Assembly: GCF_001651805.1 (NCBI RefSeq)
Contig: NZ_CP015839.1
Location: 1,116,001 to 1,180,000, forward strand
DNA length: 64,000 nt
Source of the DNA: Marinobacterium aestuarii
GTDB taxonomy: Bacteria; Pseudomonadota; Gammaproteobacteria; Pseudomonadales; Balneatricaceae
Reading direction: 5' to 3'
In this document: piece after piece, positions 6,827 through 47,348 of the stretch
How positions within the stretch are numbered: the first letter of the stretch is position 1
Layout: each line of letters starts with the position of its first letter
Notes under the pieces: generated by a model
The model's input: the letters and a program-made list of their open reading frames with translations, nothing else
Told to the model about the DNA's origin: nothing
The model's database searches: none
Made by a program: the position numbers and the translations under genes

Positions 6827-6852
6827 AAAAGCCCGCTGCTGCGGGCTTTTTT
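6827..6852 (+). terminator. Rho-independent terminator after guaA
   Basis: AAAAGCCCGC, loop TGCT, GCGGGCTTTTTT: a GC-rich 6-bp core stem extended by A-T pairs and followed by T6. The A-tract on the 5' side would also permit function on the opposite strand. A GGA-hairpin array begins immediately after it. Confidence 0.92.
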
Positions 6853-6990
6853 ATACATGGATGTATTTATCCTGCGTGTGCATGGATGCACAAAAGCAGG
6901 GTTTATACATGGATGTATTTATCCTGCGTGTGCACGGATGCACAAAAGCAGGGTTTATGTACAGTATGCCGCGAGCGCAGGGATGCGCAG
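6852..6990 (+). repeat. GGA-loop hairpin array 1 (guaA-tadA)
   Basis: Two tandem 52-bp units, each with TACATGGATGTA (6854-6865; 6906-6917) and a TGTGCAyGGATGCACA hairpin (6877-6892; 6929-6944), followed by GCGCAGGGATGCGC (6975-6988). All five small palindromes put GGA in the loop when read on the plus strand. The same modules recur in arrays 2-4. Here both flanking genes are on the plus strand, and no minus-strand GGA hairpin is present. The array forms part of the tadA leader. Confidence 0.85.
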
Positions 6991-7010
6991 GGGCGGCGGC
7001 AGGAGAGGGC

Positions 7011-7544
7011 ATGGTTGACGAGCAGCGAACGATCGACGAGCGCTGGATGGATGAGGCGCTGCTGATGGCCATGCAGGCCGATGCCGCCGGTGAGGTGCCG
7101 GTCGGTGCCGTGGTGGTACTGGATGGCGAGATTATCGGCCGTGGCTGGAACAGGCCCATCAGCGGCCATGATCCCACCGCCCATGCCGAGATCATGGCGC
7201 TGCGCGAGGCGGCGGCGGCGATCGGCAATTACCGTCTGGTGGGGGCGGACCTGTATGTCACCATCGAGCCGTGCACCATGTGTGCCGGTGCCATAGTGCA
7301 CGGGCGCATCCGTCGGCTGGTGTTTGGCGCCACTGAGCCCAAGTCCGGTGCTGTGGTCAGCAACGGCCAGTTGTTGCAGCAGGCCTGGCTGAATCACGGC
7401 GTTGTGGTAGAGGGCGGTATAAGGGCGCAGCAGTGCAGCGAGCGCATCAGTGATTTCTTTCACCGTCGCCGGGAACAGAAGCGGGCTCAGAAGCAGGCGT
7501 CGCGGGCTCTTCCGGAGGCTGCGCCGGGCGATGGGCAGGGCTGA
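7011..7544 (+). CDS. tadA: tRNA-specific adenosine deaminase
   Basis: 177 residues (E. coli TadA 167). It deaminates wobble A34 to inosine in tRNA-Arg(ACG). The zinc site is intact: HAE in TAHAEIMAL (catalytic Glu) and PCTMC (EPCTMCAGAIVHGRI). The longer open frame upstream runs through the repeat array and is not used; ATG at 7011 is preceded by a strong AGGAGAGG (7001-7008). It is located after guaA and before the convergent mltF, a common gammaproteobacterial order. The leader carries five GGA-loop hairpins, the last ending 22 bases before the start. Confidence 0.96.
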   Translation: MVDEQRTIDERWMDEALLMAMQADAAGEVPVGAVVVLDGEIIGRGWNRPISGHDPTAHAEIMALREAAAAIGNYRLVGADLYVTIEPCTMCAGAIVHGRIRRLVFGATEPKSGAVVSNGQLLQQAWLNHGVVVEGGIRAQQCSERISDFFHRRREQKRAQKQASRALPEAAPGDGQG

Positions 7545-7623
7545 GCGCGCAGAGTGATAGGGCGGACGGTCTTCCTGCGGCTTTTGATCAGCGTTTCGCC
7601 GGGGCTGGGCTCCGGTGAAGCGC

Positions 7624-9087
7624 TTAAAGTGTTGGTGGCAGGGTTTCCAGTACGGCCTCGCCGGGGCTGGGTTCCGATACTGTGTTGTCGCGGTTTTGGC
7701 GAATACGGTCTAGTTGTTTTTCCCAGCGCAGCAGGTCGATGTATTTCTGGATATTGTTGACGTAGAGCACGGGCTCATAGCCGCGGGCGTACCCCAGGCG
7801 CACGGTGCTATAGTATTTTTCCTTGGTTAGCAGGGGCAGGTGTTTGGCGACATCCTCCCAGCTATCGGGGTTCTTGCCAGCGCGCTGTGTAAGGATGCGG
7901 GCATCTTCAAGGTGGCCGAAGCCGACGTTGTAGCCGGCCAGGGCCATCCAGGTGTGATCGGGCTCGGGGATGCGCTCGGGAATCTGGTTCTTTACGCTGA
8001 TCAGGTAGTGGGCGCCGCCGATGATGCTCTGGATGGGGTCGGTGCGATCCTCCACGCCCACTTCCGAGGCCGCGGCATTGGTCAGCATCATGATGCCCTT
8101 TACGCCGGTGGGGGAGACCGCCGCCGGATTCCAGTGTGACTCCTGGTAGGCCACCGAGGCGAGCAGGGTCCAGTCGATATCGGTTTCCTGTTCGGCGATG
8201 TAAAAGTACTGCTCGTATTCCGGCAGGCGCTCGCGCAGGTCTTTCTTGAAAGTGACGGTATCGAAGTAATTGAGGGCGTTGCTGCGCTCGAAGTATTTTT
8301 CCCGCAGCTGGCGAATCAGTTCGCGGGTTTCTGCCTTGGCAAAGAACTGGTTCAGCGCTTCCAGCATGGAGCCGTCCTGCAGTTTGGGCAGCATCCAGGC
8401 GACGGGTTGGGGCTGTTCCAGTGCAAAGGCTTTTTCGAGGCCAGGGAAGAAGGAGTACTGGCCGTCGAAGCGGATGCTGTCGGCAATGGTGTAATCGATC
8501 TCCTGGTTGTGCACCTGTTCCAGCAGGTCGTTGACACTGAGCGCGTCTGTTTCTTCCCAGCTCAGCTCCGGAAAGTCCTGTTGGTACTGGCGCAGCAGTT
8601 CGCTGTGGCTGGAGTTGGCGACCACGCGGATCTGCTTGCCGATCAGGTCCTTGATGGAGGTGGGGGCGGGCTTGCCCTGGGTGACGCGGTAGATCAGGTT
8701 GGCGGCGCTTTCCATGTAGGGCGGTGCGAAGCTGAAGTCCTGCTGACGCTCGGGGGTGATGGTCAGGCCGGCGGCGGCGAGGTGGGCGCTGCGCTCGCGT
8801 ACCTGACGCAGCAGGTCGGAGAAGTTGTCCGGGATCTGCAGTTCCAGTCGCACGCCTATCTCGCTGGCGAAGGCCTGGGCGAGCTCATATTCGAAGCCGG
8901 AGGGCTCGCCCTTGTCGAGAAAATAGTCGCTGGGGGTGTTGCGGGTCGCCAGGCGCAGCACGCCGCGTTCCTGGATAACTTCCAGTCGCGTCAGGCTGTT
9001 GTAGCTCACAAGTGCCGGAAAACTCAGCAAAACAAGCAGGCTGAGCAGGATAAGGGCATCTTTGCGGCGATGAAGGTTCAGCAACAT
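7624..9087 (-). CDS. mltF: membrane-bound lytic murein transglycosylase F
   Basis: 487 residues. A short N-terminal hydrophobic segment ([19 protein letters not shown], about residues 10-28) serves as signal or anchor. It is followed by a periplasmic solute-binding-like domain (about 35-265, with [15 protein letters not shown]) and an SLT lysozyme-like domain (about 285-455). The catalytic Glu is in YQESHWNP, with GIMMLT and AGYNVG motifs. It cleaves glycan strands to 1,6-anhydromuropeptides. The start at 9087 is chosen over a frame extending 51 codons further because that extension would overlap the purL leader and lacks a signal-like sequence. Divergent from purL across 108 bp. Confidence 0.95.
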
Positions 9088-9195
9088 AGTTCGGGCTTTT
9101 CTGGTATCCGTAGGGCTGTTTCGGTAAAATTCAGGGCCTGTTTTTTCTGTAATCCCTGTCCGTCCAGGCATACTTTCAAGAGGCTCGAAAACGAC

Positions 9196-12100
9196 ATGCT
9201 CGTACTGCGTGGAGCGCCCGCTCTTTCTGCATTCCGTCACGAAAAGCTGCTGTCAGCCCTGCAATCCAAAGTTGCAGCGGTTACGGCGCTCTACGGCGAG
9301 TTCATCCATTTTGCCGACCTCAAGCAGGAGCTGGCGGATAGCCAGCGTAATGTACTGGATCGTATCCTGCGTTACGGCCCCAAAGCCGAAGCCGGTGAGC
9401 CCCAGGGTGAACTGGTGCTGGTGGTTCCCCGTCCCGGCACCATTTCACCCTGGTCCTCCAAGGCGACCGACATTGCCCGCAACTGTGGTCTGTCTGACGT
9501 CAAGCGCCTCGAGCGTGGTGTGGCGTACTATATTCAGTCATCCCAGGCGCTGGATCAAGCCGATCGTGCGCTGATTCGTGCAGAGCTGCAGGATCGTATG
9601 GTTGAAGCCGTGCTGGGTTCGCTGGACGAAGCCGCGCAGCTGTTTGTGGAGGACGTGCCACAGCCGCTGAGTCGCGTTGATGTGCTGGGCGGTGGGCGTG
9701 ATGCCCTGGCTCAGGCCAATACGGCTCTGGGTCTGGCACTGGCCGACGACGAGATCGACTACCTGGTCGACAGCTTCAAGGGGCTGGATCGCAATCCGAC
9801 CGACGTCGAGCTGATGATGTTTGCCCAGGCCAACTCCGAACATTGCCGTCACAAGATCTTCAATGCCTCCTGGGATATCGACGGTGAAGAGCAGGATCGT
9901 TCCCTGTTTGCGATGATCCGCAACACCCACGAACTGGGCGGTGAAGGCGTGCTATCGGCGTACAAGGATAACGCCGCTGTTATCGTTGGCAGCCGGGCCG
10001 GACGCTTCTACCCGGATGCTGAAAGCCGCGAATATGGCGCCAATCAGGAAGATATCCACATCCTGATCAAGGTTGAGACGCACAACCATCCGACCGCCAT
10101 TGCGCCCCACCCGGGTGCAGCAACGGGCTCCGGTGGCGAGATTCGCGACGAAGGTGCGACGGGGCGTGGCGGCAAGCCGAAGGCGGGTCTGACCGGTTTC
10201 AGCGTTTCCGACCTGAATATCCCAGGTTTTGTGCAGCCCTGGGAATCCCAGTACGGCAAGCCGGACCGCATTGTCTCGGCGCTGGATATCATGCTCGAAG
10301 GCCCCATAGGTGGTGCGGCTTTCAACAACGAATTTGGCCGCCCGGCCCTGACGGGCTACTTCCGTACCTTTGAGCAGCGCGTCAACGGTGCTGCCGGCGA
10401 GGAAGTGCGTGGTTACCACAAGCCCATCATGCTGGCGGGTGGTCTGGGCAATATCCGTGGGGATCATGTCGAAAAAGGCGAGATCCAGACCGGCGCCAAG
10501 CTGGTGTGCCTCGGCGGGCCTGCCATGCAGATCGGTCTGGGCGGCGGGGCGGCATCGTCCATGTCCTCCGGCACTTCTTCCGAAGATCTGGATTTTGCAT
10601 CGGTGCAGCGTGGCAACCCCGAGCTGGAGCGCCGCTGCCAGGAAGTCATCGATCAGTGCTGGCAGATGGGCGACGTCAACCCCATCGCCTTTATTCATGA
10701 CGTCGGCGCGGGCGGTCTGTCCAATGCCTTCCCCGAGCTGGTAAAGGACGGCGGTCGCGGCGGTGATTTCGGGCTGCGCAATATCAACAGTGACGAGCCT
10801 GGCATGACGCCGCTGGCCATCTGGTGCAACGAGGCGCAGGAACGCTATGTGCTGGCGGTGCAACCGCAGGACATGGCGCGCTTCGAAGCTATCTGTGCCC
10901 GTGAGCGCTGCCCCTATGCCATCGTCGGTGAGGCGACGCAAGAGCATCACCTGACGCTTGGCGATACGCATTTTGATAACAAGCCGGTGGATCTGCCGAT
11001 GAGCGTGCTCTTCGGCAAGCCGCCGAAGATGCACCGCAGCGTGCAGCGCAGCAGCTACGAGGTGGCCGAGTTCTCGACCGATGGTATCGTGCTGGGTGAA
11101 GCGGTTGAGCGCGTGCTGCGTCTGCCGGCGGTGGGTTCCAAGTCTTTCCTGATCACCATTGGCGACCGCTCCATTACCGGCCAGGTGGCCCGTGACCAGA
11201 TGGTCGGTCCCTGGCAGGTGCCGGTGGCGGACTGTGCCGTCACCACTTCGGCCTACGATACCTATGCTGGTGAAGCCATGGCGCTGGGCGAGCGTACGCC
11301 GCTGGCGCTGGTGGATGGCCCGGCTTCCGGGCGCATGGCCATCGGCGAGACCCTGACCAACCTGGCGGCGGCGCGCATTGGCGAGATCGGCGAAGTGCGG
11401 CTGTCGGCCAACTGGATGTGTGCTGCCGGTCACCCGGGTGAAGATGAAAAACTCTATGACACAGTGCGTGCCGTTGGCATGGAGCTGTGCCCGCAGCTGG
11501 GCATTACCGTGCCGGTGGGCAAGGATTCCATGTCCATGCGTACTGTCTGGGATGACAATGGCGAGCAGAAGAGCGTTACTGCACCACTGTCGCTGATTAT
11601 TTCCGGCTTTGCGCCGGTGCTGGATGCGCGCAAGACACTGACGCCGCAACTGCGTACCGACAAGGGCGAAACCGATCTGATCCTGCTGGATCTGGGTAAC
11701 GGCCAGAACCGCCTGGGACTGTCTGCGCTGGCGCAGGTGTATAGCCAGGTCGGTCAGTCGGTACCGGATGTGGATGATGCCGATCAGTTGGCAGCGTTCT
11801 TTGCCGCCATTCAGGAGTTGAACGAGCAGGATCTGCTGCTGGCGTACCATGACCGTTCTGATGGTGGTCTGCTTGCGACCGTGGCTGAAATGGCCTTTGC
11901 CGGTCATGCCGGTGTGGATCTGCATCTTGATCTGCTGGCGGCGGATGCATCCGAAATCGCGGCGGCGCTTTTTGCCGAAGAGCTTGGTGCCGTGGTGCAG
12001 GTCTCCAGGGCTGATACCGAAACCGTACTGACGGAGCTTAACGCTGCGGGTCTGGGCGATATTGCCAAGGTTATAGGTTCGCTGAATGACGACGATCAGC

Positions 12101-13098
12101 TGTGTATTCACTTCGATGACGAAGAAGTGTACAGCGCTGCACGCATTGAGCTGCAGCGGGTCTGGTCTGAAACCTCCTACCGCATTCAGGCGCTGCGTGA
12201 TAACTCCGAATGTGCCCAGCAGGAATTCGATACCCTGCTGGATGCGGCGGATCCTGGTCTGCATGCCGAGCTGAGCTTTGATCAGAACGAAGATGTGGCA
12301 GCGCCTTTCATTAATACCGGTGCGCGTCCGCGCATTGCGGTGCTGCGTGAGCAGGGCGTTAACGGTCAGGTGGAGATGGCGGCGGCCTTTGACAAGGCCG
12401 GCTTTGCGGCGGTGGATGTGCACATGAGTGACATCATTTCCGGGCGTCGCACGCTGGAAGAGTTCAAGGGCCTGGTGGCCTGCGGCGGCTTCTCCTACGG
12501 TGACGTACTGGGCGCCGGTGAAGGCTGGGCCAAGTCGATACTGTTCAACGCTGTCGCGCGGGAGCAGTTCGAAGCCTACTTCAACCGTACCGATACCTTT
12601 GCGCTGGGTATCTGTAACGGCTGTCAGATGCTATCCAACCTGCATGAGCTGATTCCGGGCGCAGGACTCTGGCCGCACTTCGTGCGTAATATGTCCGAGC
12701 AGTTCGAAGCCCGCGTCGCCATGGTGGAGGTGCAGCAGAGTGCGTCCATTCTGCTGCAGGGGATGCAGGGTTCGCGCATGCCGATCGCTATTGCCCATGG
12801 TGAGGGCCGTGCGGAGTTCCGTGACGAAGCGCACCTGATCGGATTGCAGGGTGCTGGAGACATTGCGCTGCGCTATGTGGATAACTATGGCCGCGTGACC
12901 GAGCAGTATCCGGCCAACCCGAACGGCTCGCCGGTCGGTATTGGTGGTGTGACCACGGCGGATGGCCGTGTCACCATCATGATGCCGCATCCGGAGCGTG
13001 TGTTCAGGGCTGTGCAGAACTCCTGGGCGCCGGACGCCTGGGAAGAAGACGGCGCCTGGATGCGCATGTTCCGCAATGCCCGCGTCTGGGTTGGCTAA
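9196..13098 (+). CDS. purL: phosphoribosylformylglycinamidine synthase
   Basis: 1300 residues (E. coli 1295), the single-chain large PurL of proteobacteria. It converts FGAR plus glutamine and ATP to FGAM in purine synthesis. An N-terminal PurS-like domain and linker is followed by duplicated AIRS-type synthetase domains ([19 protein letters not shown] near residue 300; [18 protein letters not shown] near 890). The C-terminal glutaminase domain has nucleophile Cys1140 in GICNGCQM and the [10 protein letters not shown] histidine. The start [19 protein letters not shown] is the family N-terminus; AGAGG lies about 12 bases upstream. The open frame continues far upstream but that part is antisense to mltF. 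Confidence 0.98.
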
Positions 13099-13121
13099 AC
13101 CGCTTTCCCTCGCTCGAAACT

Positions 13122-13151
13122 AAAACGGCAGCCCTCGGGCTGCCGTTTTTT
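13122..13151 (+). terminator. Rho-independent terminator after purL
   Basis: ACGGCAGCC, a CTCG loop, GGCTGCCGT and a T6 tract. It is flanked by AAA on the 5' side. Array 2 follows directly. Confidence 0.92.
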
Positions 13152-13317
13152 GTACAGGGATGTACTTATCCTACGGGCGCATGGATGCGCTGGAGTAGGG
13201 TTTATACAGGGACGTATGTATCCCGCGTGCGCATGGATGCGCAGGAGCGGGGTTTACAGGGACGTACTTTATTGTTATTTGCTCCTGCAATAACAATAGT
13301 CCCGCCATCCCTGGCGG
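13152..13317. repeat. GGA-loop hairpin array 2 (purL / ompA-like junction)
   Basis: Plus-strand hairpins: GTACAGGGATGTAC (13152-13165), GCGCATGGATGCGC (13177-13190), TACAGGGACGTA (13205-13216), GCGCATGGATGCGC (13229-13242), TACAGGGACGTA (13255-13266). Then two minus-strand hairpins: stem 13270-13282/13287-13298 with TCCT on plus (AGGA loop on minus), and 13302-13317, which reads CCGCCAGGGATGGCGG on minus. The change of strand falls within a junction between convergent genes. The first hairpin matches the CsrA consensus RUACARGGAUGU at every position. Confidence 0.85.
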
Positions 13318-13368
13318 TCATCCTACTAGCGCATGGGGTCTGCAGCTGCGAGCTGGAATCACAGGCAC

Positions 13369-13397
13369 AAAAAAAGCCGGCAGATGCCGGCTTTTTT
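13369..13397 (-). terminator. terminator of the OmpA-like gene
   Basis: Read on the minus strand: GCCGGCATCTGCCGGC followed by seven T; on the plus strand the same hairpin ends in T6, so it can act in both directions. It lies just after the stop of the OmpA-like gene. Confidence 0.9.
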
Positions 13398-13412
13398 ACC
13401 GCTTAAGAAAGA

Positions 13413-14027
13413 TTACATGTCTTTCTTGTCACCGGAGATCTGCACGTCTACACGACGGTCTGCGCGCAGGCAGGCAATCAGAGCAGCGCCGCGGCCGGAG
13501 CAGCTGGCGACAGGTGCGGATTCGCCCAGGGAGCTGACGCTGATCTTGCCACCATCAACGCCGGCAGCACGCAGCTCGGAAGCAACGGCTTCAGCGCGAC
13601 GCTGGCCCAGACGCTGGTTGTAATCGGCGTTGCCGATAAAGTCAGCGTTACCGACCAGATCTACGTTGTCCAGCTTGGACATGGAGCCAATGTAGTTAAC
13701 GATGGCGCTGATGTCTTCTTCAACCTTGGCGCTGTCGAAGTCGAAGAACAGGCTGAATTTTTTGTCAGCGCTGACCATCATTGGCGCGGCGGGAACCGGA
13801 GCCGGAGCGGGTTCTTCGGCTTTAGCCATGGCCTGGTAGCCGTCGCAGCCTTCAACTGTGGCATCTGCTTCGGTGAAGAAGCCGGTGTGCCAGCATTCAC
13901 CGAAGCTGTTGCGCCAGATAGTGGCGGAAGAGTCTTCAACGTAGCCTTGATTGGTTGGGTGCGCCTGGGCGACGGCAGACAAAGTCATAGCCAAAGCGAC
14001 ACCGGCGGAGAGGGCAAACTTTTTCAT
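13413..14027 (-). CDS. OmpA-family outer membrane protein, peptidoglycan-binding
   Basis: 204 residues. Signal peptide MKKFALSAGVALAMTLSAVAQA, cleaved before HPTN. Residues about 25-70 contain a short cysteine-bearing segment (GECWHTGFF, VEGCDGY) seen in OmpA-like proteins that lack the full beta-barrel, then an Ala/Pro-rich hinge (about 72-82). The C-terminal OmpA domain (about 90-200) has FFDFDSAKV, DFIGNADYNQRLGQRRAEAV and the RRVDVQI end, the segments that bind meso-diaminopimelate. It is probably a periplasmic protein tethering envelope and peptidoglycan rather than a porin. AAGGAAA ribosome-binding site upstream. Monocistronic with a strong terminator. Confidence 0.9.
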   Translation of the reverse strand: MKKFALSAGVALAMTLSAVAQAHPTNQGYVEDSSATIWRNSFGECWHTGFFTEADATVEGCDGYQAMAKAEEPAPAPVPAAPMMVSADKKFSLFFDFDSAKVEEDISAIVNYIGSMSKLDNVDLVGNADFIGNADYNQRLGQRRAEAVASELRAAGVDGGKISVSSLGESAPVASCSGRGAALIACLRADRRVDVQISGDKKDM

Positions 14028-14219
14028 AGTAAGATTTCCTTGTGCCTGTTGTGGGTGGTCAGTCTATAAAAATAGCCCAAATTCTCTCCCACGGTTCCTG
14101 AATGATGGTTGAATGTAACCGTCAACGTCCGTGGTGGCCAGGGGTACTTTTCACAGCTGTAGACAGCTACCGGTTACGGTATAGCTAATCGGCAACATAC
14201 TAACATACAGATTGTGTGA

Positions 14220-14519
14220 TTATGGTAAAACTTTTTTGTAAGGTTTTACCGTAACGCGCGCGTATACGTCTGCCTTTATATAGGGGTCTTCATTGGCCCA
14301 GGTCTGTGCCGCTTCCAGCGAACTGAATTGCGCAATAACCAGGCTACCAGTAAAACCTGCTGGGCCCGGATCTTCACTGTCAATTGCCGGGTGTGGCCCG
14401 GCTACGAGCAGAAGTCCTTCATTCTTAAGCTGTTCGAGGCGGGCAAGGTGCTCGGGCCGTGCCTGCAGTCGTCGCTCCAGGCTATCGGGTTTATCCTCGG
14501 CCATGATTGCGTAAAACAT
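14220..14519 (-). CDS. yciI: YciI family protein
   Basis: 99 residues, the YciI length. It starts [17 protein letters not shown], with the conserved His/Asp pair of the family represented by RPEHLARL and [13 protein letters not shown]. The family has a ferredoxin-like fold related to muconolactone isomerase; its reaction is unknown. It lies 30 bp downstream of yciB on the same strand, as in E. coli and Pseudomonas. The last codons and stop overlap a 10-bp inverted repeat (about 14223-14249) with no T tract. Confidence 0.93.
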
Positions 14520-14549
14520 GTTACCGGTACTCCTCTTTTTTTGTATGCG

Positions 14550-15092: not shown

Positions 15093-15137
15093 GGGCTTGA
15101 TGTCTACTGTGTGGAGCCCCAGTATAAAGGCCTGTTC

Positions 15138-15998: not shown

Positions 15999-16055
15999 TC
16001 CTCTGTGCTGGGCTACACTGCGCCTTGAGAGGGAATCAGGACAGGCAGGCTAATC

Positions 16056-33548: not shown

Positions 33549-33576
33549 AAACGGCACCTGCACAGGTGCCGTTTTT
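33549..33576 (+). terminator. Rho-independent terminator after the ComEA-like gene
   Basis: AACGGCACCTG, CA, CAGGTGCCGTTTTT: a long stem with T5. Array 3 begins three bases later. Confidence 0.92.
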
Positions 33577-33578
33577 AT

Positions 33579-33714
33579 GTACAGGGATGTATGTATCCCG
33601 CGGGCGCATGGATGCGCAGGAGTGGGGTTTACAGGGATGTATGTATCCTGCGGGCGCATGGCCGTTCCCTGAAAAGTGCTCCTGCATTTTCAGGATTTCC
33701 ACCATCCCTGGCGG
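33579..33714. repeat. GGA-loop hairpin array 3 (ComEA-like / AEC transporter junction)
   Basis: Plus-strand hairpins: TACAGGGATGTA (33580-33591 and 33630-33641) and GCGCATGGATGCGC (33604-33617). A further GCGCATGG is truncated at about 33654. Minus-strand hairpins: stem 33669-33679/33684-33693 with AGGA in the loop on minus, and 33699-33714 (CCGCCAGGGATGGTGG on minus, one mismatch). The order plus-type then minus-type matches array 2 and again lies between convergent genes. The first site matches the CsrA consensus at all 12 positions. Confidence 0.85.
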
Positions 33715-33745
33715 TCATGCGCAGAGGCGAAAGCAGGCGCGGTGG

Positions 33746-37687: not shown

Positions 37688-37808
37688 CTGTTGATAGCCT
37701 CACCTGGGCGGCATGACCGCGCAGGACATTGTTCACAAGGGTGAAAAGATAAAAAGTTGTATCGCTACTCAGTTAAACGGGCAGCCGGGTCAGCCCGGAA
37801 TCTGCCTG

Positions 37809-39194: not shown

Positions 39195-39199
39195 GTTTC

Positions 39200-39730: not shown

Positions 39731-39770
39731 CGGGAACGACCTTCGAGTTCAGGATAAGGACGGGAGGCGT

Positions 39771-39798
39771 AAAAAAAGCCGGGGCATGACGCCCCGGC
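39771..39798 (-). terminator. terminator/attenuator between dctP and dctQ
   Basis: On the minus strand GCCGGGGC-GTCAT-GCCCCGGC is followed by T7. It lies between two genes of one transporter, which would lower DctQ/DctM relative to the binding protein, as is usual for TRAP and ABC systems. Confidence 0.9.
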
Positions 39799-39805
39799 GA
39801 AGGTG

Positions 39806-40894
39806 TTACTCGGTGCGGCTGCGCGGCAGGAAGGCGTTGGCTTCCCACAGGTCATAGCCTGCGCGGAAGGTGCTCAGGTCATCCCAGACTTTCTTGAAGA
39901 AAGGGTCTTCGGCGGATTTTTCCACGGCGACTTCATCCCAGGTGCTCTTGAAGGTATCCAGCATGGTCTGGTTCCAGTAACGGATATGCACGCCATCTTC
40001 CTTGGCCTTGGCCATCACCGGGAACTGCATGGCCTCGCCTTCGGCCACCGAGTTGGTCATGGATGCCATGCAGATGGTTTCAATCGTTGCCTGCTGGCCT
40101 TCGCTCATGCCGTTCCAGGCGTCCTTGTTGACCAGCAACTCGAAGATGGTGGCCTGCTGATGCCAGCCCGGGAAGTAGTTGTACTTGACGATCTTGCTCA
40201 GGCCCAGGCGCTGATCGATGGCCGGCTGGGAGAACTCGGTGGCGTCTATGGCGCCTTTCTCCAGTGCTCCGAAAATCTCGCCGCCCGGCAGCTGCACTGT
40301 ACCCACGCCGAGTTTTTCCATCACCGAGGCACCCAGGCCGAAGAAGCGCATGTTCAGGCCCTTCAGGTCTTCAGGCTTGTCGATCGGCTTGGCGAACCAG
40401 CCCGAGGTTTCCGGAGACAGGATGGCGCAGGGCAGTACCTTGACGTTAAATCCGGCGCTGTCGTACATCTCCTGGTACAGGCTCAGGCCGTTGCCGTAGT
40501 ACATCCAGGCCATGTATTCACCCGCCTCGGGGCCAAAGGGGACGGCGGAGAACAGGGCGGCGGCCGGAATTTTGCCCTGCCAGTAACCGGCGGTGGCATA
40601 GCCGGAGTTCACCTTGCCGGACGATACCGCATCGAGGATCTCCGGCGGGCTGACCAGTTTGCCGGGCTCATAGACCTTCATGCGGATGTTACCGTCGCTG
40701 ACCTTGTCAAGCCGATCTGCGACCCAGGTGATGGTGGTGCCCAGCGCCGGCAGATTGGTTGCAAAGGCGATGGGGGTTTTCAGCAGTATTTTTTCGGCTG
40801 CCAGTGCCCGGGGGCTGGCGACCATGAAGGCGCTGCCGGTGAAAATGGCGCTGATGACGGCAGCGGACATGAGGCTTTTGGAGAATTTCTTCAT
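39806..40894 (-). CDS. TRAP transporter substrate-binding protein (DctP/TakP-like)
   Basis: 362 residues. Signal peptide of about 33 residues ending ALAA before EKIL. The mature protein has TRAP features: GTVQLPGGEIFGALEKGAID and the ligand-binding arginine region in MRFFGLGASVMEK. The pattern PGGEIFGALEKGAIDATEFS resembles TakP-type proteins that bind 2-oxo or 2-hydroxy monocarboxylates such as pyruvate and lactate, rather than DctP for C4-dicarboxylates. A PdhR-like operator just upstream and the linked dehydrogenase support a pyruvate/lactate ligand. Ligand identity is inferred. Confidence 0.9.
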   Translation of the reverse strand: MKKFSKSLMSAAVISAIFTGSAFMVASPRALAAEKILLKTPIAFATNLPALGTTITWVADRLDKVSDGNIRMKVYEPGKLVSPPEILDAVSSGKVNSGYATAGYWQGKIPAAALFSAVPFGPEAGEYMAWMYYGNGLSLYQEMYDSAGFNVKVLPCAILSPETSGWFAKPIDKPEDLKGLNMRFFGLGASVMEKLGVGTVQLPGGEIFGALEKGAIDATEFSQPAIDQRLGLSKIVKYNYFPGWHQQATIFELLVNKDAWNGMSEGQQATIETICMASMTNSVAEGEAMQFPVMAKAKEDGVHIRYWNQTMLDTFKSTWDEVAVEKSAEDPFFKKVWDDLSTFRAGYDLWEANAFLPRSRTE

Positions 40895-40972
40895 GAAGTG
40901 TCCTCGGGGTGGAGCTGATTATTTTTGTTGGAATTCTGTGCTTTCGCATGCGACCGGATGGCCACTGTTTTT

Positions 40973-40987
40973 ATTGGTCTTACCAAT
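40973..40987. promoter_or_regulatory. PdhR-like operator upstream of dctP
   Basis: ATTGGTCTTACCAAT; with one flanking base it reads AATTGGTAAGACCAAT on the minus strand, 16 of 17 positions of the E. coli PdhR consensus AATTGGTAAGACCAATT. It lies about 20 bases downstream of the predicted dctP -10, so a bound repressor would block transcript initiation or elongation. Confidence 0.85.
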
Positions 40988-41006
40988 TTACCTCTCCAGT
41001 GTTGTT

Positions 41007-41036
41007 ACTGTATTTTTTCTGTACAACGCTTGTCAA
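41007..41036 (-). promoter_or_regulatory. sigma-70 promoter of the dctPQM operon
   Basis: Minus strand: TTGACA (41036-41031), 18-base spacer, TACAGT (41012-41007). The predicted start is near 41000, upstream of the PdhR-like operator. Confidence 0.65.
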
Positions 41037-41092
41037 CTTTTTCACCATTAAAACCAAAGCTCCCGTATTTGTTAGCGTTTCAGGGGAGGGTC

Positions 41093-41121
41093 TTGATATC
41101 AACGATCTGATAAGGTAGAAA
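41093..41121 (+). promoter_or_regulatory. probable pdhR promoter
   Basis: TTGATA (41093-41098), 17-base spacer, TAGAAA (41116-41121). The PdhR-like operator 41122-41136 abuts the -10, consistent with autorepression. Confidence 0.5.
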
Positions 41122-41136
41122 ACTGGTATTACCAAT
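41122..41136. promoter_or_regulatory. PdhR-like operator upstream of pdhR
   Basis: ACTGGTATTACCAAT, one base from a perfect ATTGGT-N3-ACCAAT palindrome. It is the second such site in the 363-bp dctP-pdhR divergent region. Confidence 0.8.
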
Positions 41137-41257
41137 TATTGCGCTGGCCTGTGCTGACCCGGTGAATTACAACTATAGGCGCCCAGTTAAAAAGCGCCGT
41201 AACATGACGGTTTTATTAGGGTTTTATCATGCTGTTGGTACAGCGGGAGGGATTAAG

Positions 41258-42019
41258 GTGGCCTATCAGCGGGTAAAACAACCCAAAATTTCCGATGTCA
41301 TAGTGCAGCAGATAGAGGAAATGATTCTCGAAGGTACGCTTAAGCCGGGTCAGAAGTTGCTGCCCGAGCGGGAGCTGGCCAAGCAGTTTGATGTTTCACG
41401 TCCATCGCTGCGTGAAGCGGTGCAGAAACTGGCGGCCCGTGGTTTGCTGGTGAGCCGCCAGGGCGGCGGCACCTATGTTTCCGAAGAGCTGGGTGCTTCC
41501 TTTTCCGATCCGTTGCTGGAGCTGTTCAAGACGCATCCGGAAGCGCAGTATGATCTGCTGGAGTTTCGCCACGCCCTTGAGGGTGTCTCGGCCTACTATG
41601 CAGCGCTGCGCAGTACGGCCGCCGACCGGGAAGAGATCCAGACGCGCTATGATGAGCTGCAGCACTTTCACAGCTGCAAGGAGTTCAGCAAGGAGGTGGA
41701 CGCCGATGTTGAGTTCCATCTCGCCATCGCCGCAGCGACCCACAACATGGTGCTGTTGCACATGATGCGCGCGCTCTTCAGTTTGCTGCGCCAGCACATC
41801 ACCGACAACCTGTTGAATATTTACCCCAGGCCCGGCTACCGGGAAAAGATCCATGACCAGCACCGGGTGCTGATGACTGCTATCCTTGCCGGTGAGCCGG
41901 ACAACGCGCGCAAGGCTGCCCACCACCATATTGCCTATGTTGAAGAGGCCTTGCTGGAAGGGGAACGGGAAAATACCCGTCAGGAACGGGCGCTGCGCCG
42001 GGCTAATGCCGGTGTTTAA
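41258..42019 (+). CDS. pdhR: pyruvate dehydrogenase complex repressor PdhR (GntR/FCD family)
   Basis: 253 residues (E. coli 254). An N-terminal winged helix (about 1-72) contains LLPERELAKQFDVSRPSLREAVQKL, nearly identical to E. coli PdhR including the recognition helix. The C-terminal FCD effector domain (about 95-235) carries the metal-ligand pattern around EFHLAIAAATHN and HRVLMTAILAG. It senses pyruvate. GTG at 41258 is chosen: GGGAGG lies 7 bases upstream and the protein then begins (V)AYQRVKQPKISDVI like E. coli MAYSKIRQPKLSDVI. It is followed by aceE and aceF as in E. coli and is divergent from the TRAP operon. Confidence 0.95.
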   Translation: MAYQRVKQPKISDVIVQQIEEMILEGTLKPGQKLLPERELAKQFDVSRPSLREAVQKLAARGLLVSRQGGGTYVSEELGASFSDPLLELFKTHPEAQYDLLEFRHALEGVSAYYAALRSTAADREEIQTRYDELQHFHSCKEFSKEVDADVEFHLAIAAATHNMVLLHMMRALFSLLRQHITDNLLNIYPRPGYREKIHDQHRVLMTAILAGEPDNARKAAHHHIAYVEEALLEGERENTRQERALRRANAGV

Positions 42020-42146
42020 TGGTACTTTTGAGACGCGATGTCGCAATTTGGCCGAGATTGGCGTGTAACTCAGGTCAGTGCTGGAGCCCGCAGTCGCAGC
42101 ATGCCCGCCAGGGCTGAGAAAACGTAGATTTCAGTTTGGTATTATT

Positions 42147-42162
42147 ACTACAAAAATGTAGT
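42147..42162. promoter_or_regulatory. inverted repeat 1 upstream of aceE
   Basis: ACTACA-AAAA-TGTAGT, a 6-bp palindrome with a 4-base spacer. It shares the TGTAGT half-site with the palindrome at 42219-42235, 57 bases further downstream. Confidence 0.6.
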
Positions 42163-42218
42163 CTGGAGACGGTTTTGTTGCCATCAATATCCAATATGTG
42201 CATAATATTGACGCCATT

Positions 42219-42235
42219 CTGTAGTAATACTACAG
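42219..42235. promoter_or_regulatory. perfect 17-bp palindrome upstream of aceE
   Basis: CTGTAGTAATACTACAG is symmetric about its central base. The inner TAGTAATACTA fits the general GntR/FCD operator form TNGT-N3-ACNA but differs from the TGGT-N3-ACCA PdhR sites next door. TTGACG at 42208-42213 just upstream could be a -35, with the palindrome filling the spacer, so occupancy would block the promoter. The cognate regulator is unknown. Confidence 0.7.
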
Positions 42236-42347
42236 GATAATAAGAACGAGAAGATGGCAGGGCGCGGGAAGCCTGAACAACAGGCTGTTCCGTCTTAACG
42301 CTTACGTGGGATTGACTGCTCGAATAAGAATGAGTGGAGAAAGCAAA

Positions 42348-45005
42348 GTGCAAGAATTCGTTGAAGATATTGATCCGATAGAAACCCATGAATGGTTGGA
42401 TGCACTGGAGTCTGTTGCCAAAAGCGACGGCGATGATCGTGCACGGTTTATTCTCAAACAGCTGGGGCGCAAGGCCGCTGATATCGGCGTAGGTAGCGTC
42501 GGTGCCACTACGACCCCATACCGCAACACTATCGCCCCCAAAGACGAAAGTCGCATGCCGGGCGATTTGTTTGTTGAGCGTCGTATCCGTTCCTTTATTC
42601 GCTGGAACGCGATGGCGATGGTCATGCGCGCCAACGACAACAAGGAAGGCCTGGGTGGTCACATCTCCAGCTTCTCGTCGTCCGCCACGCTGTACGATAT
42701 TGGCTTTAACTACTTTTTCCGCGGCAATGAAGGCGAGCAGGATGCCGACATGGTGTTCTTCCAGGGGCATATTTCCCCCGGTATTTACGCCCGCGCCTAT
42801 CTTGAAGGTCGTCTGACCGAAGAGCAGCTCGACAACTTCCGCCGCGAAGTGGACGGCAATGGTCTGTCGTCCTATCCCCATCCCTGGCTGATGCCGAACT
42901 TCTGGCAGTTCCCGACCGTGTCCATGGGTCTGGGGCCGATTCAGGCGATCTACCAGGCGCACGTCATGCGCTACCTGTCTGCCCGTAGCCTGATCAATCG
43001 CGGTGATCGCAAGATCTGGGCTTTCCTGGGCGACGGTGAGTGCGATGAGCCGGAAACCCTGGGTGCCATTTCCCTGGCCGGCCGTGAACATCTCGAAAAC
43101 CTGATCTTCGTTATCAACTGCAACCTGCAGCGCCTCGACGGGCCGGTACGCGGTAACGGCAAGATTGTGCAGGAGCTCGAAGGCATCTTCCGTGGCGCCG
43201 GCTGGAACGTGGTCAAGTGCCTGTGGGGCCGCCACTGGGATCCGCTGCTGGAAAAAGACACAACTGGCTTGCTGCAAAAGCGCATGGACGAAGTCTGTGA
43301 CGGCGAGCTGCAGAACTACAAGGCCAACGGCGGTGCTTACACCCGCGAGCATTTCTTCGGCAAGTACCCGGAACTGCTTGAGATGGTGAAGGATATGTCC
43401 GATCAGGACATCATGAACCTGAACCGCGGTGGTCATGACCCGTACAAGGTCTATGCGGCTTACCAGTCTGCCTATCAGCACAAGGGTCAGCCCACCGTTA
43501 TCCTGGCGCAAACCGTCAAGGGTTACGGTACAGGCACCTCAGGCGAAGCCAAGAATGACACCCACTCCATCAAGAAAGTGGCTGTCGACGACCTGAAAGA
43601 CTTCCGCGACCGCTTCAATATTCCGTTGACCGATGAGCAGCTGAACGACGTTCCGTACTACCGTCCGTCGCCTGATTCGCCGGAAATGAAGTACATGTTC
43701 GAGCGCCGCAAGCAGCTCGGCGGCTTCTACCCGACCCGTCGCACCGAGTTTGACGTGCTGGAAACGCCGGCACTGGATGCCTTTGCCAGCCAGCTCAAGT
43801 CCAGCGGTGAGCGTGAGCTCTCGACCCAGATGGGTCTGAACCGTGTCTTGAACGTGCTGGTCAAGGACAAGCAGATTGGCAACCGCATAGTGCCGATCGT
43901 TCCGGACGAAGCCCGTACCTTTGGTATGGAAGGCATGTTCCGTCAGCTGGGTATCTACACCTCGGCCGGCCAGCGTTATGTACCCCATGACTCTGACCAG
44001 ATCATGTTCTACAAGGAATCCAAGACCGGTCAGGTGCTGGAAGAGGGTATCAATGAAGCCGGTGCATTCTCTGCCTGGCTGGCCTGTGCCACCTCCTACA
44101 GCAACAACAACTGCCCGATGGTGCCGTTCTACATCTTCTACTCGATGTTCGGCTTCCAGCGTGTCATGGATCTGATCTGGGCGGCCGGCGACAGCCAGGC
44201 GCGCGGTTTCCTGATCGGCGCCACCTCTGGTCGTACTACCCTGAACGGCGAAGGCCTGCAGCACCAGGATGGTCACAGCCACCTGATGGCGCAGATGATC
44301 CCGAACTGCGTCAGCTACGATCCGACCTACGCCTATGAAGTGACCGTCATCGTCCAGGACGGCCTTGAGCGCATGTACAAGAAGCAGGAAAACCGCTTCT
44401 ACTACATCACCACGATGAACGAAAACTACACCCATCCGGAAATGCCGGTGGGTGCAGAGGACGCCATCATCAAGGGCATGTACCTGCTTGAAGAAGGCAA
44501 GAGCGCCGACCTCAAGGTACAGCTTATGGGCTGTGGCACCATCCTGCGTGAAGTGCGTGAAGCCGCGATCATTCTGCGTGAAGAATACGGTATTGAATCC
44601 GATGTCTGGAGCACCACCTCGATCAATGAGCTGCGCCGCGAGGCACAGGAAGTTGATCGCTGGAACATGATGCACCCGACCGACGAGCCGCGCGTACCCT
44701 ACGTGACCGAGTGCCTGCAGGACCGTCAGGGTCCGGTTATCGCCTCGACCGACTACATGCGCATGTTCGCCGATCAGCTGCGCGAATTTATCCCGCACCG
44801 CTACAAGGTGCTGGGTACCGATGGTTTCGGCCGTTCCGATACGCGCACCAAGCTGCGTGAGTTCTTCGAAGTTAACCGTTACTACGTCGTTCTGGCTGCG
44901 CTCAAGGCGCTGCAGGAAGAAGGCAAGGTGCCTGCAACCGATGTTGCCAAGGCGATGCAGAAGTTCAATCTGAACCCGGAAAAACCGGCGCCCTGGACCG
45001 TTTAA
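42348..45005 (+). CDS. aceE: pyruvate dehydrogenase E1 component (homodimeric)
   Basis: 885 residues (E. coli 887). It decarboxylates pyruvate on thiamine diphosphate and acetylates E2. The ThDP motif is GDGECDEPETLGA through NCNLQRLDGPV; YFQGHISPG-type (FFQGHISPGIYARAYLEGRL) and EGLQHQDGHSH segments are diagnostic. GTG at 42348 is preferred because GGAG at 42335-42338 lies 9 bases upstream and the N-terminus (MQEFVEDIDPIETHEWLDAL) then matches the family length; ATG 42330 and GTG 42306 are in-frame alternatives. A 328-bp leader with two palindromes separates it from pdhR. Confidence 0.97.
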   Translation: MQEFVEDIDPIETHEWLDALESVAKSDGDDRARFILKQLGRKAADIGVGSVGATTTPYRNTIAPKDESRMPGDLFVERRIRSFIRWNAMAMVMRANDNKEGLGGHISSFSSSATLYDIGFNYFFRGNEGEQDADMVFFQGHISPGIYARAYLEGRLTEEQLDNFRREVDGNGLSSYPHPWLMPNFWQFPTVSMGLGPIQAIYQAHVMRYLSARSLINRGDRKIWAFLGDGECDEPETLGAISLAGREHLENLIFVINCNLQRLDGPVRGNGKIVQELEGIFRGAGWNVVKCLWGRHWDPLLEKDTTGLLQKRMDEVCDGELQNYKANGGAYTREHFFGKYPELLEMVKDMSDQDIMNLNRGGHDPYKVYAAYQSAYQHKGQPTVILAQTVKGYGTGTSGEAKNDTHSIKKVAVDDLKDFRDRFNIPLTDEQLNDVPYYRPSPDSPEMKYMFERRKQLGGFYPTRRTEFDVLETPALDAFASQLKSSGERELSTQMGLNRVLNVLVKDKQIGNRIVPIVPDEARTFGMEGMFRQLGIYTSAGQRYVPHDSDQIMFYKESKTGQVLEEGINEAGAFSAWLACATSYSNNNCPMVPFYIFYSMFGFQRVMDLIWAAGDSQARGFLIGATSGRTTLNGEGLQHQDGHSHLMAQMIPNCVSYDPTYAYEVTVIVQDGLERMYKKQENRFYYITTMNENYTHPEMPVGAEDAIIKGMYLLEEGKSADLKVQLMGCGTILREVREAAIILREEYGIESDVWSTTSINELRREAQEVDRWNMMHPTDEPRVPYVTECLQDRQGPVIASTDYMRMFADQLREFIPHRYKVLGTDGFGRSDTRTKLREFFEVNRYYVVLAALKALQEEGKVPATDVAKAMQKFNLNPEKPAPWTV

Positions 45006-45053
45006 GGCTCCTGTGAACTTCGTAACGGTTGAGAATTAGTAGAGGACATTATC

Positions 45054-47015
45054 GTGAGCACAATCACAATTAGCGTTCCAGACCTCAGTGGCGCCTCGGA
45101 TGTCGATGTCGTTGAGGTACTGGTCAAGGCGGGCGATGTTATCGCCGAGGGCGACAGCCTGATTGCCGTTGAGACCGACAAGGCCTCAATGGAAGTACCG
45201 TCCACCCATGGCGGTACAGTCAAGGAAGTGATTATCAAGGAGGGTGGCACCTGCAACGAAGGTGACCAGATTCTGATTCTGGAAACGGGCGCGGCAGCGG
45301 CCCCCGAAGCTTCCGCAACAGCAGCTCCGGCTGCTGCGGCTCCTGCTCCAGCCCCCGCGGCGGCACCTGCGGCACCTGCTGCAGCTGCTGCTGCGGCAAG
45401 TGTTGAAGAAGTCCGGGTGCCGGATCTCAGCGGTGCCTCCGATGTTGACGTGGTTGAAGTCCTGGTCAAGGCTGGTGATGTGATTGCCGAGGGCGACAGC
45501 CTGATCGCGGTCGAAACCGACAAGGCGTCCATGGAAGTGCCGGCCCCGATGGGCGGCACGGTCAAGGAAGTCAAGATTGTGGCCGGCGGCACCTGCAATG
45601 AAGGTGACCTGATCCTGACGCTGGAGGTTGCAGGCAGTGCAGCATCGGCGCCCCAGGCTCAGGCGCAGGCTCCGGCCGCTGCGCCTGCAGCAGCCCCGGC
45701 CCCTGCAGCAGCTCCGGCTGTAGCCGGTGGTATCGAAGAGGTTCGGGTGCCGGATCTCAGCGGTGCCACCGATGTGGACGTGATTGAAGTCCTGGTCAAG
45801 GTCGGTGATGTCATTGCCGAGGGCGACAGCCTGATCGCGGTTGAGACCGACAAGGCCTCGATGGAAGTGCCGGCGCCCAAGGGCGGTACCGTCAAGTCCG
45901 TCAGCATCAGTGCCGGTGGTACCTGCAACGAAGGTGATCTGATCATCACGCTGGAAGTGGCCGGTAGTGCTGCGGTCGCGGCGCCCGCTGCTGCACCTGC
46001 TGCGGCTCCCGCTGCTGCAGCTGCACCCGTGGCGGCACCTGCTGCGCCTGCCAAGGCGGCGCCAGGCGCGACCGTTAACCAGGCACTGGAGCAGAAGAAC
46101 CGTGCCGTGCACGCAGGCCCGGCCGTTCGCGCCATCGCCCGCGAGTTCGGGGTTGATCTGTCGCTGGTGGCAGGTTCAGGCCGTCGTGGTCGTGTCGTCA
46201 AGGAAGACGTGCAGAACTACGTCAAGGTCTCGCTCAAGGCGCTGGCCGAGAAGCCTGCTGCTGGTGTTGCCACCGGCTCCGGTATTCCGGCCGTCCCTGC
46301 GATCGATTTCAGCCAGTTTGGCGAGATTGAACTGCAGAAGATGAGCAAGATTGCCAAGGTGACGGCGGCGAACATGACCCGTTGCTGGCTCAATGTGCCG
46401 CACGTGACCCAGTTCGACAAGGCGGACATCACCGAGCTGGAAGCCTTCCGCAAGGAAATGAAGGACGCCGCAGCGAAAGAGGGCGTCAAGCTCACGCCGC
46501 TGCCGTTCATCATCAAGGCGGTGGCTCAGGCGCTGAAGGAGAACCCCAAGTTCAACGCCTCTCTGCATGCTGATGGCGAGCACATAGTGCTGAAGAAATA
46601 CATCAACGTCGGTCTGGCGGTGGATACGCCAAACGGCCTGATGGTGCCGGTGATCAAGGATGCGGACAAGAAGTCCATCTACGAGCTGTCCCGGGAAGCG
46701 AACGAACTGGCTGGCAAGGCCAAGGATCGCAAGCTGAAACCCAACGAGATGCAGGGCTGCTGCTTTACTATCTCGAGCCTGGGTGGCATTGGCGGTACTG
46801 GCTTTACGCCTATAGTACCGGCGCCGGAAGTTGGCATCCTGGGTGTATCCAAGGCAGACATAGAGCCGCGCTGGAATGGCAAGGAGTTCGAGCCGCGCCT
46901 GATGCTGCCGCTGTGTCTGTCCTATGACCACCGGGCGATTAATGGCGGGGATGCAGGACGCTTCCTGACCTACCTGAACAGTCTGCTGAGCGATATCCGT
47001 CGCTTGGTGCTGTAG
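45054..47015 (+). CDS. aceF: pyruvate dehydrogenase E2 component, dihydrolipoyl acetyltransferase
   Basis: 653 residues, GTG start with AGAGG upstream. Three lipoyl domains (about 2-75, 119-195, 229-305), each with the lipoylation motif ETDKASMEVP, are joined by flexible Ala/Pro linkers. A peripheral subunit-binding domain (about 352-388, AGPAVRAIAREFGVD) and the catalytic domain (about 420-653) with SYDHRAINGG follow. Asn replaces the usual Asp after DHRAI, as in several Pseudomonas-type E2 proteins. It transfers acetyl to CoA in the 24-mer core. No lpd (E3) gene follows. Confidence 0.97.
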   Translation: MSTITISVPDLSGASDVDVVEVLVKAGDVIAEGDSLIAVETDKASMEVPSTHGGTVKEVIIKEGGTCNEGDQILILETGAAAAPEASATAAPAAAAPAPAPAAAPAAPAAAAAAASVEEVRVPDLSGASDVDVVEVLVKAGDVIAEGDSLIAVETDKASMEVPAPMGGTVKEVKIVAGGTCNEGDLILTLEVAGSAASAPQAQAQAPAAAPAAAPAPAAAPAVAGGIEEVRVPDLSGATDVDVIEVLVKVGDVIAEGDSLIAVETDKASMEVPAPKGGTVKSVSISAGGTCNEGDLIITLEVAGSAAVAAPAAAPAAAPAAAAAPVAAPAAPAKAAPGATVNQALEQKNRAVHAGPAVRAIAREFGVDLSLVAGSGRRGRVVKEDVQNYVKVSLKALAEKPAAGVATGSGIPAVPAIDFSQFGEIELQKMSKIAKVTAANMTRCWLNVPHVTQFDKADITELEAFRKEMKDAAAKEGVKLTPLPFIIKAVAQALKENPKFNASLHADGEHIVLKKYINVGLAVDTPNGLMVPVIKDADKKSIYELSREANELAGKAKDRKLKPNEMQGCCFTISSLGGIGGTGFTPIVPAPEVGILGVSKADIEPRWNGKEFEPRLMLPLCLSYDHRAINGGDAGRFLTYLNSLLSDIRRLVL

Positions 47016-47049
47016 CACTTTGGAAAGACCCACTTCCAAAACCTTGGCG

Positions 47050-47078
47050 TCAGGGCCCTGTTTGGGGTCCTGATTTTT
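47050..47078 (+). terminator. Rho-independent terminator after aceF
   Basis: TCAGGGCCC pairs with GGGGTCCTGA (one wobble), followed by T6. A second, stronger hairpin lies about 85 bases on. Confidence 0.75.
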
Positions 47079-47161
47079 TACCGGTCTGCTCTGCAAGCCG
47101 TGCCCGGGAAAGGGAAGCGTTTTTACACAGCTACAGACTCATGTATTTAACCAATACAAAC

Positions 47162-47191
47162 AAAAGGCCACTCAATCGAGTGGCCTTTTTT
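47162..47191 (+). terminator. second terminator downstream of aceF
   Basis: AAAAGGCCACTC-AATC-GAGTGGCCTTTTTT: a perfect stem flanked by A4 and T6, able to work on both strands. Array 4 begins at once after it. Confidence 0.9.
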
Positions 47192-47192
47192 A

Positions 47193-47348
47193 TACAGGGA
47201 CGTATGTTGGCATTTTTTGCTCCTGCAAAAATGCCATTTCCGCCATCCTTGGCGGTCCCTGCCTTTTGCTCCTGCAAAGCCAGAGTTCCCGCCGTCCCTG
47301 GCGGTCATCCTGCGGGTGCAATGGATGCACACGACTACAGGGATGTAG
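47193..47348. repeat. GGA-loop hairpin array 4 (aceF / ugd junction)
   Basis: Plus-strand TACAGGGACGTA (47193-47204). Then two minus-strand pairs: AGGA-loop hairpin 47208-47236 with 47240-47255 (CCGCCAAGGATGGCGG on minus), and AGGA-loop hairpin 47259-47283 with 47289-47304 (CCGCCAGGGACGGCGG on minus). Finally plus-strand GTGCAATGGATGCAC (47316-47330) and CTACAGGGATGTAG (47335-47348). It lies between convergent aceF and ugd. The minus-type pair is duplicated here. Confidence 0.85.

Follow-up and report, generated by a model that had tools for sequence, protein, structure and literature searches.

Terminator-anchored mosaic repeats with GGA-tipped hairpins in Marinobacterium aestuarii as putative CsrA/RsmA-binding elements

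Intergenic palindromes of unclear role are present in many genomes. The high-affinity RsmE/CsrA site is an ANGGAX hexaloop sitting directly on a stem (PMC4005645), and reasoning of the same kind as that used here led to the TwoAYGGAY RNA (RF01731) being predicted as CsrA-binding (PMC4333381). The Escherichia coli RNAs RrA, RrB and RrF are made by read-through between dual terminators and bind CsrA (PMC8144298), and among proteins acting on repeats the TnpAREP group is described in PMC8266576 as contacting loops or stem irregularities. Here four intergenic arrays of short hairpins with GGA at the tip are considered, all lying in a 64,000-nucleotide stretch (the window), bases 1116001-1180000 of the 5.19 Mb single-contig genome of Marinobacterium aestuarii (G000 below). 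No recognised description of this repeat family was met in the literature searched, most subscription journals being outside the reach of that search.

The arrays are tentatively read as mobile modular repeats whose conserved function is a putative CsrA/RsmA-binding RNA hairpin, a reading that falls somewhat short of probable. On the sequence evidence CsrA binding in cells seems the best single explanation and a loop-reading transposase a serious rival, and the CsrA-site and mobile-repeat readings need not exclude each other. Counting by script and by reading gave 24 GGA-class hairpins (5, 7, 5 and 7 in arrays 1 to 4, some with a G-U or A-C pair), mostly spaced 24-27 nt from tip to tip, in agreement with the initial annotation, which had placed about 24 short palindromes in four arrays at positions all of which were read and found correct. 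It had also named two full matches to a CsrA consensus, and indeed 13152-13163 and 33579-33590 both read GTACAGGGATGT, matching all 12 positions of the consensus RUACARGGAUGU, with GGA in a hairpin loop, that CsrA/RsmA reportedly selects in systematic evolution of ligands by exponential enrichment.

Two unit types of about 50 nt are found, each made of two hairpins with GGA at the tip on one strand. The A-B unit consists of hairpin A (GTACAGGGATGTAC and variants) and then an outer stem, for example TCCTGC/GCAGGG, around hairpin B (GCGCATGGATGCGC), and in some arrays a shorter-loop form, A' (GTTCAGGATGAAC, GTACAGGAAGTAC), takes the place of A. The D'C' unit, which is C-D read on its GGA strand, lies on the opposite strand and runs from hairpin D' (CCGCCAGGGATGGCGG) to hairpin C', whose long, sequence-variable stem has a one-base bulge and bears the tip GCAGGAGC. 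That each loop has GGA on one strand, as first noted, stands with a correction, namely that in the window GGA is on the + strand for A (TACA) and B (GCGCA) and on the - strand for D (GCCA) and C (AGGA), 16 against 8, and so no single transcript shows all the window tips. Several GGA loops do nevertheless share a strand within an array, five on the + strand in array 1 and two D' plus two C' on the - strand in array 4.

In sequence the array tips are those of CsrA sites, and the A, B and D' hairpins fit the hexaloop-on-stem definition of PMC4005645. The genome has one near-canonical csrA match, and its CsrA protein agrees with PDB 1y00 at 53 of 57 aligned residues and is clearly similar to 2jpp. 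These two structures we take to be E. coli CsrA and P. fluorescens RsmE respectively. For RsmZ (RF00166), the one Csr small RNA family covered genome-wide, the best match in the genome is the - strand of array 4 (E 5e-4, 27.1 bits, gathering score 44), and below-cut-off matches to the same model also occur in 8 of 14 control genomes. Rfam families as the answer were set aside, the weak RsmX, RsmY, RsmZ and leader matches being read as mostly terminators plus GGA loops.

It is clear that the repeats are real, ordered and widespread, and far above chance. Among the window's 117 perfect hairpins with a four-base loop and arms of 5 or more, 17 have NGGA or TCCN as the loop, where 3.1 were expected. 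Across a genome sample of 80 evenly spaced 20-kb stretches (1.6 Mb; genes came from a simple script of our own and coding borders are approximate), ANGGAN or its complement fills the loop in 52 of 494 intergenic hairpins that have six loop bases and a C-G closing pair, over a background of 0.86%, and in 17 of 2597 such hairpins in coding sequence, over a background of 0.67%. Between genes the two most frequent of these hexaloops are ATGGAT and AGGGAT, complements included. Five-base AGGAN tips show a mild intergenic enrichment (16 of 488, over a background of 1.0%), whereas four-base AGGA tips show none (5 of 455, again over 1.0%), in a count that disallows the bulge which the C hairpin has. 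A whole-genome search for the modules, proposed in the initial annotation, finds the pattern TACAGGGANGTA at 20 places and its reversed control at none. The models R1 (D'C') and R2 (A-B), both built on copies from this genome, match 14 and 10 times in the 1.6 Mb sample and as often as 4 and 5 times in the 64 kb of the window, which is a hotspot.

The likeness to CsrA sites proposed at the outset is borne out in the stems as well, which covary beneath the tip. Alignment A2 holds 17 of 21 D'C' candidates (dropped were the chance matches 1122972 and 1163332, the decayed 3053019 and the overlapping 3053045), A1 holds 14 of 21 A-B candidates (the others being mostly an overlapping B-A register), A3 keeps 9 rows with a six-base A loop and a six-base B loop, and A4 takes 15 of 51 segments. 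For D'C' in the genome 10 of 15 pairs have changed on both sides and 94.5% of cells are paired, neither the paired cells nor the covariation score being equalled in any of 500 shuffles. For A-B 6 of 13 pairs have changed on both sides in the genome (100% paired) and 10 of 13 across genera (99.5% paired, row L318 being misaligned in the inner stem), the latter with a covariation score of 0.511 compared with at most 0.179 in slid controls. When no loop is demanded, 11 orthologous array stretches contain 64 perfect hairpins with six-base loops, and 36 of these have ANGGAN or its complement, the other 28 including terminators, flanks, decayed copies and a pairing of A's GGAT with the following ATCC. 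The outer stems around B and C covary too; neither this nor the anchoring of the arrays at terminators had been remarked on in the initial annotation.

Which strand folds was addressed by a model-independent count of C-ANGGAN-G tips with exactly one odd pair, G-U or A-C on the GGA strand. Over all loci G-U to A-C came to 75:25 with four pairs, 34:11 with five and 21:4 with six, and to 12:9, 21:19, 13:11 and 13:13, about 1:1, for four control tips. Collapsing copies to distinct stems leaves 18:9 (p 0.06) in the even sample and 14:5 (p 0.03) in 118 other-species contigs from which pattern units are excluded, 32:14 in all, or 7:5 and 8:3 respectively at five pairs, and within the alignments G-U against A-C is 10 to 5 in A2 and 3 to 0 in A4. 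Because G-U outnumbers A-C there and the controls stay near 1:1, the GGA strand is probably the one that folds, the effect being modest. Predicted RNA folds of the array strands in five stretches are more stable than shuffles (z -2.1 to -6.8), and overall the hairpin structure seems to be selected.

All four window arrays begin directly behind a terminator. The terminator scan omits the + terminators of arrays 2 and 4, probably counting their A/T flanks as stem, and these were called by eye. The features, in window coordinates, are as follows.

6828-6852, + strand: intrinsic terminator of the upstream + gene, a hairpin and T-tract called by eye
6853-7002, + strand: array 1, A-B-A-B-(A remnant)-B, each of its five tips showing GGA on the + strand
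13124-13151, + strand: intrinsic terminator before array 2, by eye, not in the terminator scan list
13152-13266, + strand: array 2, A-B-A-B-A part, by hairpin search and reading
13268-13319, - strand: array 2, a single D'C' unit with A on one side and a broken B (to about 13336) on the other, by model match and reading
33550-33577, + strand: intrinsic terminator before array 3, by eye
33579-33641, + strand: array 3, A-B-A part, by hairpin search and reading
33645-33738, + strand: array 3, second B, divided by a D'C' unit lying within the loop, by eye
33665-33716, - strand: array 3, the D'C' unit inside the B loop, by model match
47162-47191, both strands: terminator before array 4, apparently two-way, the - strand from the scan and the + strand by eye
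47192-47205, + strand: array 4, A hairpin, by hairpin search and reading
47206-47306, - strand: array 4, two tandem D'C' units, absent at this site in the relative G001
47307-47350, + strand: array 4, B hairpin and CTACAGGGATGTAG hairpin, by hairpin search and reading

The + gene upstream of array 1, whose protein ends PATIEWE, is presumably that for GuaA, and the next + gene, into whose leader the array extends, we take to be tadA; array 1 lies between tandem genes. The outer stem of its last B (window 6970-7011) stops about 12 nt upstream of the likely start of tadA (7011), and because of this array 1 may act on tadA translation. Arrays 2, 3 and 4 lie between convergent genes and have no start codon downstream.

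The anchoring extends over the genome, the first A starting 0-2 nt past a run of at least four T, usually a clear terminator tail, at 19 of 20 A-type sites. The lone exception is 1955828, and the site at 3849 kb is a lone A; the count leaves out D'- or C'-only loci near 241, 879 and 3053 kb, the model matches 255885, 2761461, 2767877, 3853383 and 4934424, and other families with a similar GTACATGGATGTAC hairpin. With the bare A pattern 8 of 26 matches in the 1.6 Mb sample stand behind a T-tract, and the remainder are inner modules, members of other families or matches in coding sequence. Loci from relatives contributed 27 distinct A-B starts, of which 20 come after a T-tract, 6 after a previous B and 1 after neither. 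The chance of an intergenic base being so placed is 2.2%. The A-B unit points the same way as the gene whose terminator precedes it, and D'C' opposes A-B in all 13 G000 arrays read that hold both types, interrupting it in 7 of them (five times between A and B, at 344, 1129, 1163, 3670 and 5117 kb, and twice in the loop of B, at 1073 and 1149 kb). Of the 48 sampled intergenic tips for which both neighbouring genes are known, 29 lie between convergent genes, in regions that make up 24% of such intergenic DNA. Confinement of C-D units to convergent genes was ruled out by the array at 1073300 between tandem genes, and dual terminators were dropped as a general rule, having been seen by eye only beside array 2 and at 1826 kb, in a survey that did not count every array.

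Compared between genomes, the arrays behave in sequence as mobile mosaic repeats, with an empty site, nested units and a patchy spread. At the array 4 site of the relative G001, A is followed directly by B, where G000 has the two D'C' units between them, and at this one empty site no obvious target duplication, which with terminal inverted repeats marks miniature inverted-repeat transposable elements, was seen. Orthologous sites were sought via flanking genes (80-95% identity) in six congeners, G001 to G006. Array 1 occurs in G001, G003 and G006 and as a remnant in G002, and is missing from G004 and G005; array 2 occurs in G001, G002, G003 and G006, G004 having an array on the convergent gene's terminator instead and G005 none in the roughly 200 nt remaining before its contig end; array 3 occurs in G001 and G002 and in decayed form in G003, and is missing from G004, G005 and G006; and for array 4 a true neighbour was found in G001 only. 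An autonomous element with D' and C' flanking a gene was rejected: among loci from L263 on, a set biased by being mostly chosen with the D'C' pattern, 148 D' have a C' at 18-40 nt and 16 do not, just one of these having an unpaired C' farther off (at 170 nt), and 46 C' are without a nearby exact-stem D'.

Further afield R2 matches at least 44 and R1 at least 45 of 115 genomes (E up to 0.01, G000 included). Within the class, at E up to 0.001, R1 is found in 81 of 369 genomes, spread over 66 of 272 genera, a very patchy distribution. A draw over the phylum gave R1 matches in 39 of 398 genomes, 14 of them outside the class, where 8 fall in one family (f244) with E down to 1.4e-11 and the rest are weak. 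The exact D'C' pattern occurs in at least 118 stretches, and among the 80 listed nearly all have gammaproteobacterial names, five being labelled only Proteobacteria and one being a Coriobacteriaceae metagenome-assembled genome. A Sedimenticola locus (L318) has the full layout terminator-A-B-A-[C-D]-B-A, its tips being the same and its stem sequences different. Exact D'C' units were also seen in eight viral-contig stretches of IMG/VR (L381-L388).

The tip is not confined to these units. Several other G000 repeats with unrelated flanks carry CA(T/G)GGATG hairpins, for example TGAAGCAGGGATGCTTCA, AAGCTACAGGGATGTAGCTT and GGTACATGGATGTACC, and ANGGAT tips of other families lie at about 13587, 658294, 1917183, 2603618, 2876349, 3134186, 3707788 and 3973551. 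A tip common to families with unrelated flanks would be explained more simply by a shared tip-reading partner than by repeated coincidence. On other contigs (L325, L330, L369, L316) another two-hairpin repeat was seen with ANGGAN tips 23-27 nt apart and different spacers. At L254 the likely ribosome-binding site of a gene with a product starting MSISDWPAQERPRERLLSLG, presumably RadC, lies under a GACACAGGGAGGTGTC hairpin.

If the hairpins are indeed CsrA sites, a polymerase reading through the terminator, or arriving from the convergent gene, would make an RNA with some three to five GGA hairpins about 25 nt apart, neighbouring hairpins would be bound by CsrA dimers, and each array would be a small CsrA decoy with an output that follows read-through. 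The units themselves might spread as single-stranded hairpin DNA or by copying between arrays, via some enzyme. Were the sites to work, CsrA titration would be set by dozens of movable loci, beyond a few small RNAs, target predictions for the Csr network would have to count these repeats, and a global post-transcriptional regulator would have a link to a class of mobile elements.

A number of observations weigh against CsrA binding as the conserved function. The constant tip in the alignments is partly built in, because the patterns and models that gathered the rows demand a GGA tip and favour pairing. GGA-centred hexaloops taken overall have A as the first base in only 93 of 277 cases in the genome's own sample and 104 of 239 in other species, and A' (five-base loop) and C' (four-base AGGA loop) do not fit the hexaloop definition of PMC4005645. 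Collapsing copies makes the G-U excess modest; with three pairs it disappears (78:68), as it does at C-type tips (5:5), and single-stranded DNA would give it too. For the whole of arrays 1 and 3 the predicted folds favour some long-range pairing that hides some tips, and in many A-B units the GGAT of A can instead pair with the following ATCC. Eight of the 24 window hairpins show UCC, not GGA, on the + strand, a sigma-70-like promoter was not found around arrays 2 and 4, the two scanned (chance mean 0.2-0.3), and an Rfam search of the window at gathering scores returned two tRNAs only, with no Csr small RNA family and no TwoAYGGAY. Arrays have been lost in some relatives, and the effects of RrA, RrB and RrF in cells are only modest according to PMC8144298.

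The strongest rival, possible if rather doubtful, is that the arrays are purely selfish repeats akin to repetitive extragenic palindromic (REP) sequences and bacterial interspersed mosaic elements (BIMEs), a putative HUH-type transposase reading the loop in single-stranded DNA and the likeness to CsrA sites being coincidental. The empty site without obvious target duplication, the nesting in 7 of 13 arrays and the very patchy presence of D'C' in 81 of 369 genomes of the class would all suit this, as would the retention of a one-base bulge in C' and the TnpAREP contacts described in PMC8266576. The initial annotation had named such repeats as its alternative, and what stands of this is the mobile mosaic; by the tests made they are not REPs of resident REP-associated tyrosine transposase (RAYT) genes. 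An origin from RAYTs was rejected, as G000 holds two IS200 copies and two RAYT-like genes, all with palindromes other than the array units. A RAYT gene flanked by the same modules, which had been envisaged, was not found in that form: among 16 RAYT-like Y1_Tnp loci (two from this genome and 14 best-in-genome, sorted by E-value and frame, with L400, L401, L416 and L419 in neither the RAYT-like nor the IS200-like list) none is flanked by A-B or D'C', save that one of the two G000 loci, L077, has one D'C' 245 bp from its RAYT. The G000 RAYT genes sit amid distinct palindromic repeats of their own, five GTAG palindromes by script at L076 and, at L077, none by script and repeated imperfect ones by eye; over the 16 loci the script finds GTAG palindromes at 10. 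Before the array hairpins the conserved REP tetranucleotide, mostly GTAG, is absent in alignments A2 and A3 and in other-species D' flanks, although the GAC that precedes D' in 13 of 20 printed other-species units could be a guide-like motif. Also at odds with coincidence are the sharing of the tip by families with unrelated flanks and its fit to the CsrA consensus, free positions included.

It is unlikely that the hairpins act without CsrA, whether in back-up termination, in insulating convergent genes or as a barrier to 3' exonucleases. The 19 of 20 sites at terminators and the 29 of 48 tips between convergent genes would favour such a role, but the hairpins come after and not before the T-tract, and so would not protect the terminated mRNA; a fixed ANGGAN tip would also be unneeded, and array 1 lies between tandem genes. 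That CsrA regulates in cis only the gene whose start codon lies near the hairpins is very improbable, the position of array 1 before tadA and the start hairpins of 6 of 16 RAYT-like genes speaking for it and the lack of any start codon downstream of arrays 2, 3 and 4 against it.

These RAYT start hairpins, of the form C-A(A/T)GGAT-G and found in this and related genomes, lie at the translation start in L076, L410, L412 and L414 with arms of at least 4, and in L077 and L409 with arms of 3, the last two being called by eye after the first count, so that longer arms alone would give 4 of 16; at L404 a like hairpin inside codons 1-5 was excluded. The baseline is 3 of 1227 called genes in the sample, one being array 1 miscalled as a gene start. 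Seven ANGGAN hairpins with arms of at least 4 occur in 6 of the 16 loci, with 0.14 expected per 3.3 kb. A far-reaching and quite speculative extension, thought improbable, is that a class-wide mobile family conserves the CsrA hairpin, that the terminator-hung repeats form a distributed decoy tunable by copy number, and that RAYT-type genes, many of them beginning translation at a hairpin of this kind, are CsrA-repressed and released when decoys are abundant. Were it true, a global regulator and the genome's repeats would control each other.

Set beside described systems, the arrays share with REP/BIMEs and their RAYTs the short intergenic palindromes in inverted mosaics, and differ in having no GTAG and in the RAYT loci read not being flanked by array units. 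With RrA, RrB and RrF they may share read-through past a first terminator and CsrA binding, both features of those RNAs and only proposed for the arrays; RrA, RrB and RrF are three nearly identical rRNA-operon copies and not mobile mosaics. TwoAYGGAY resembles them as a pair of GGA-tip hairpins in the same Rfam clan and, in 1 of 18 other-species loci (Thalassolituus L265, 541-671), rises just over the gathering cut-off directly beside a D'C' unit. The window arrays are below gathering for it and have mostly AGGGAY or ATGGAY tips, and repetition and terminator anchoring are features of the arrays outside the description in the portion seen of PMC4333381. Unlike CsrB- and RsmZ-type RNAs the arrays are dispersed in many copies and both orientations, mobile and below the gathering score, with no promoter found for the two scanned, and like CsrB/CsrC and RsmX/Y/Z (Rfam clan CL00106) they are serial hairpins with GGA loops, array 4 on its - strand ending in a terminator and giving the best RsmZ match.

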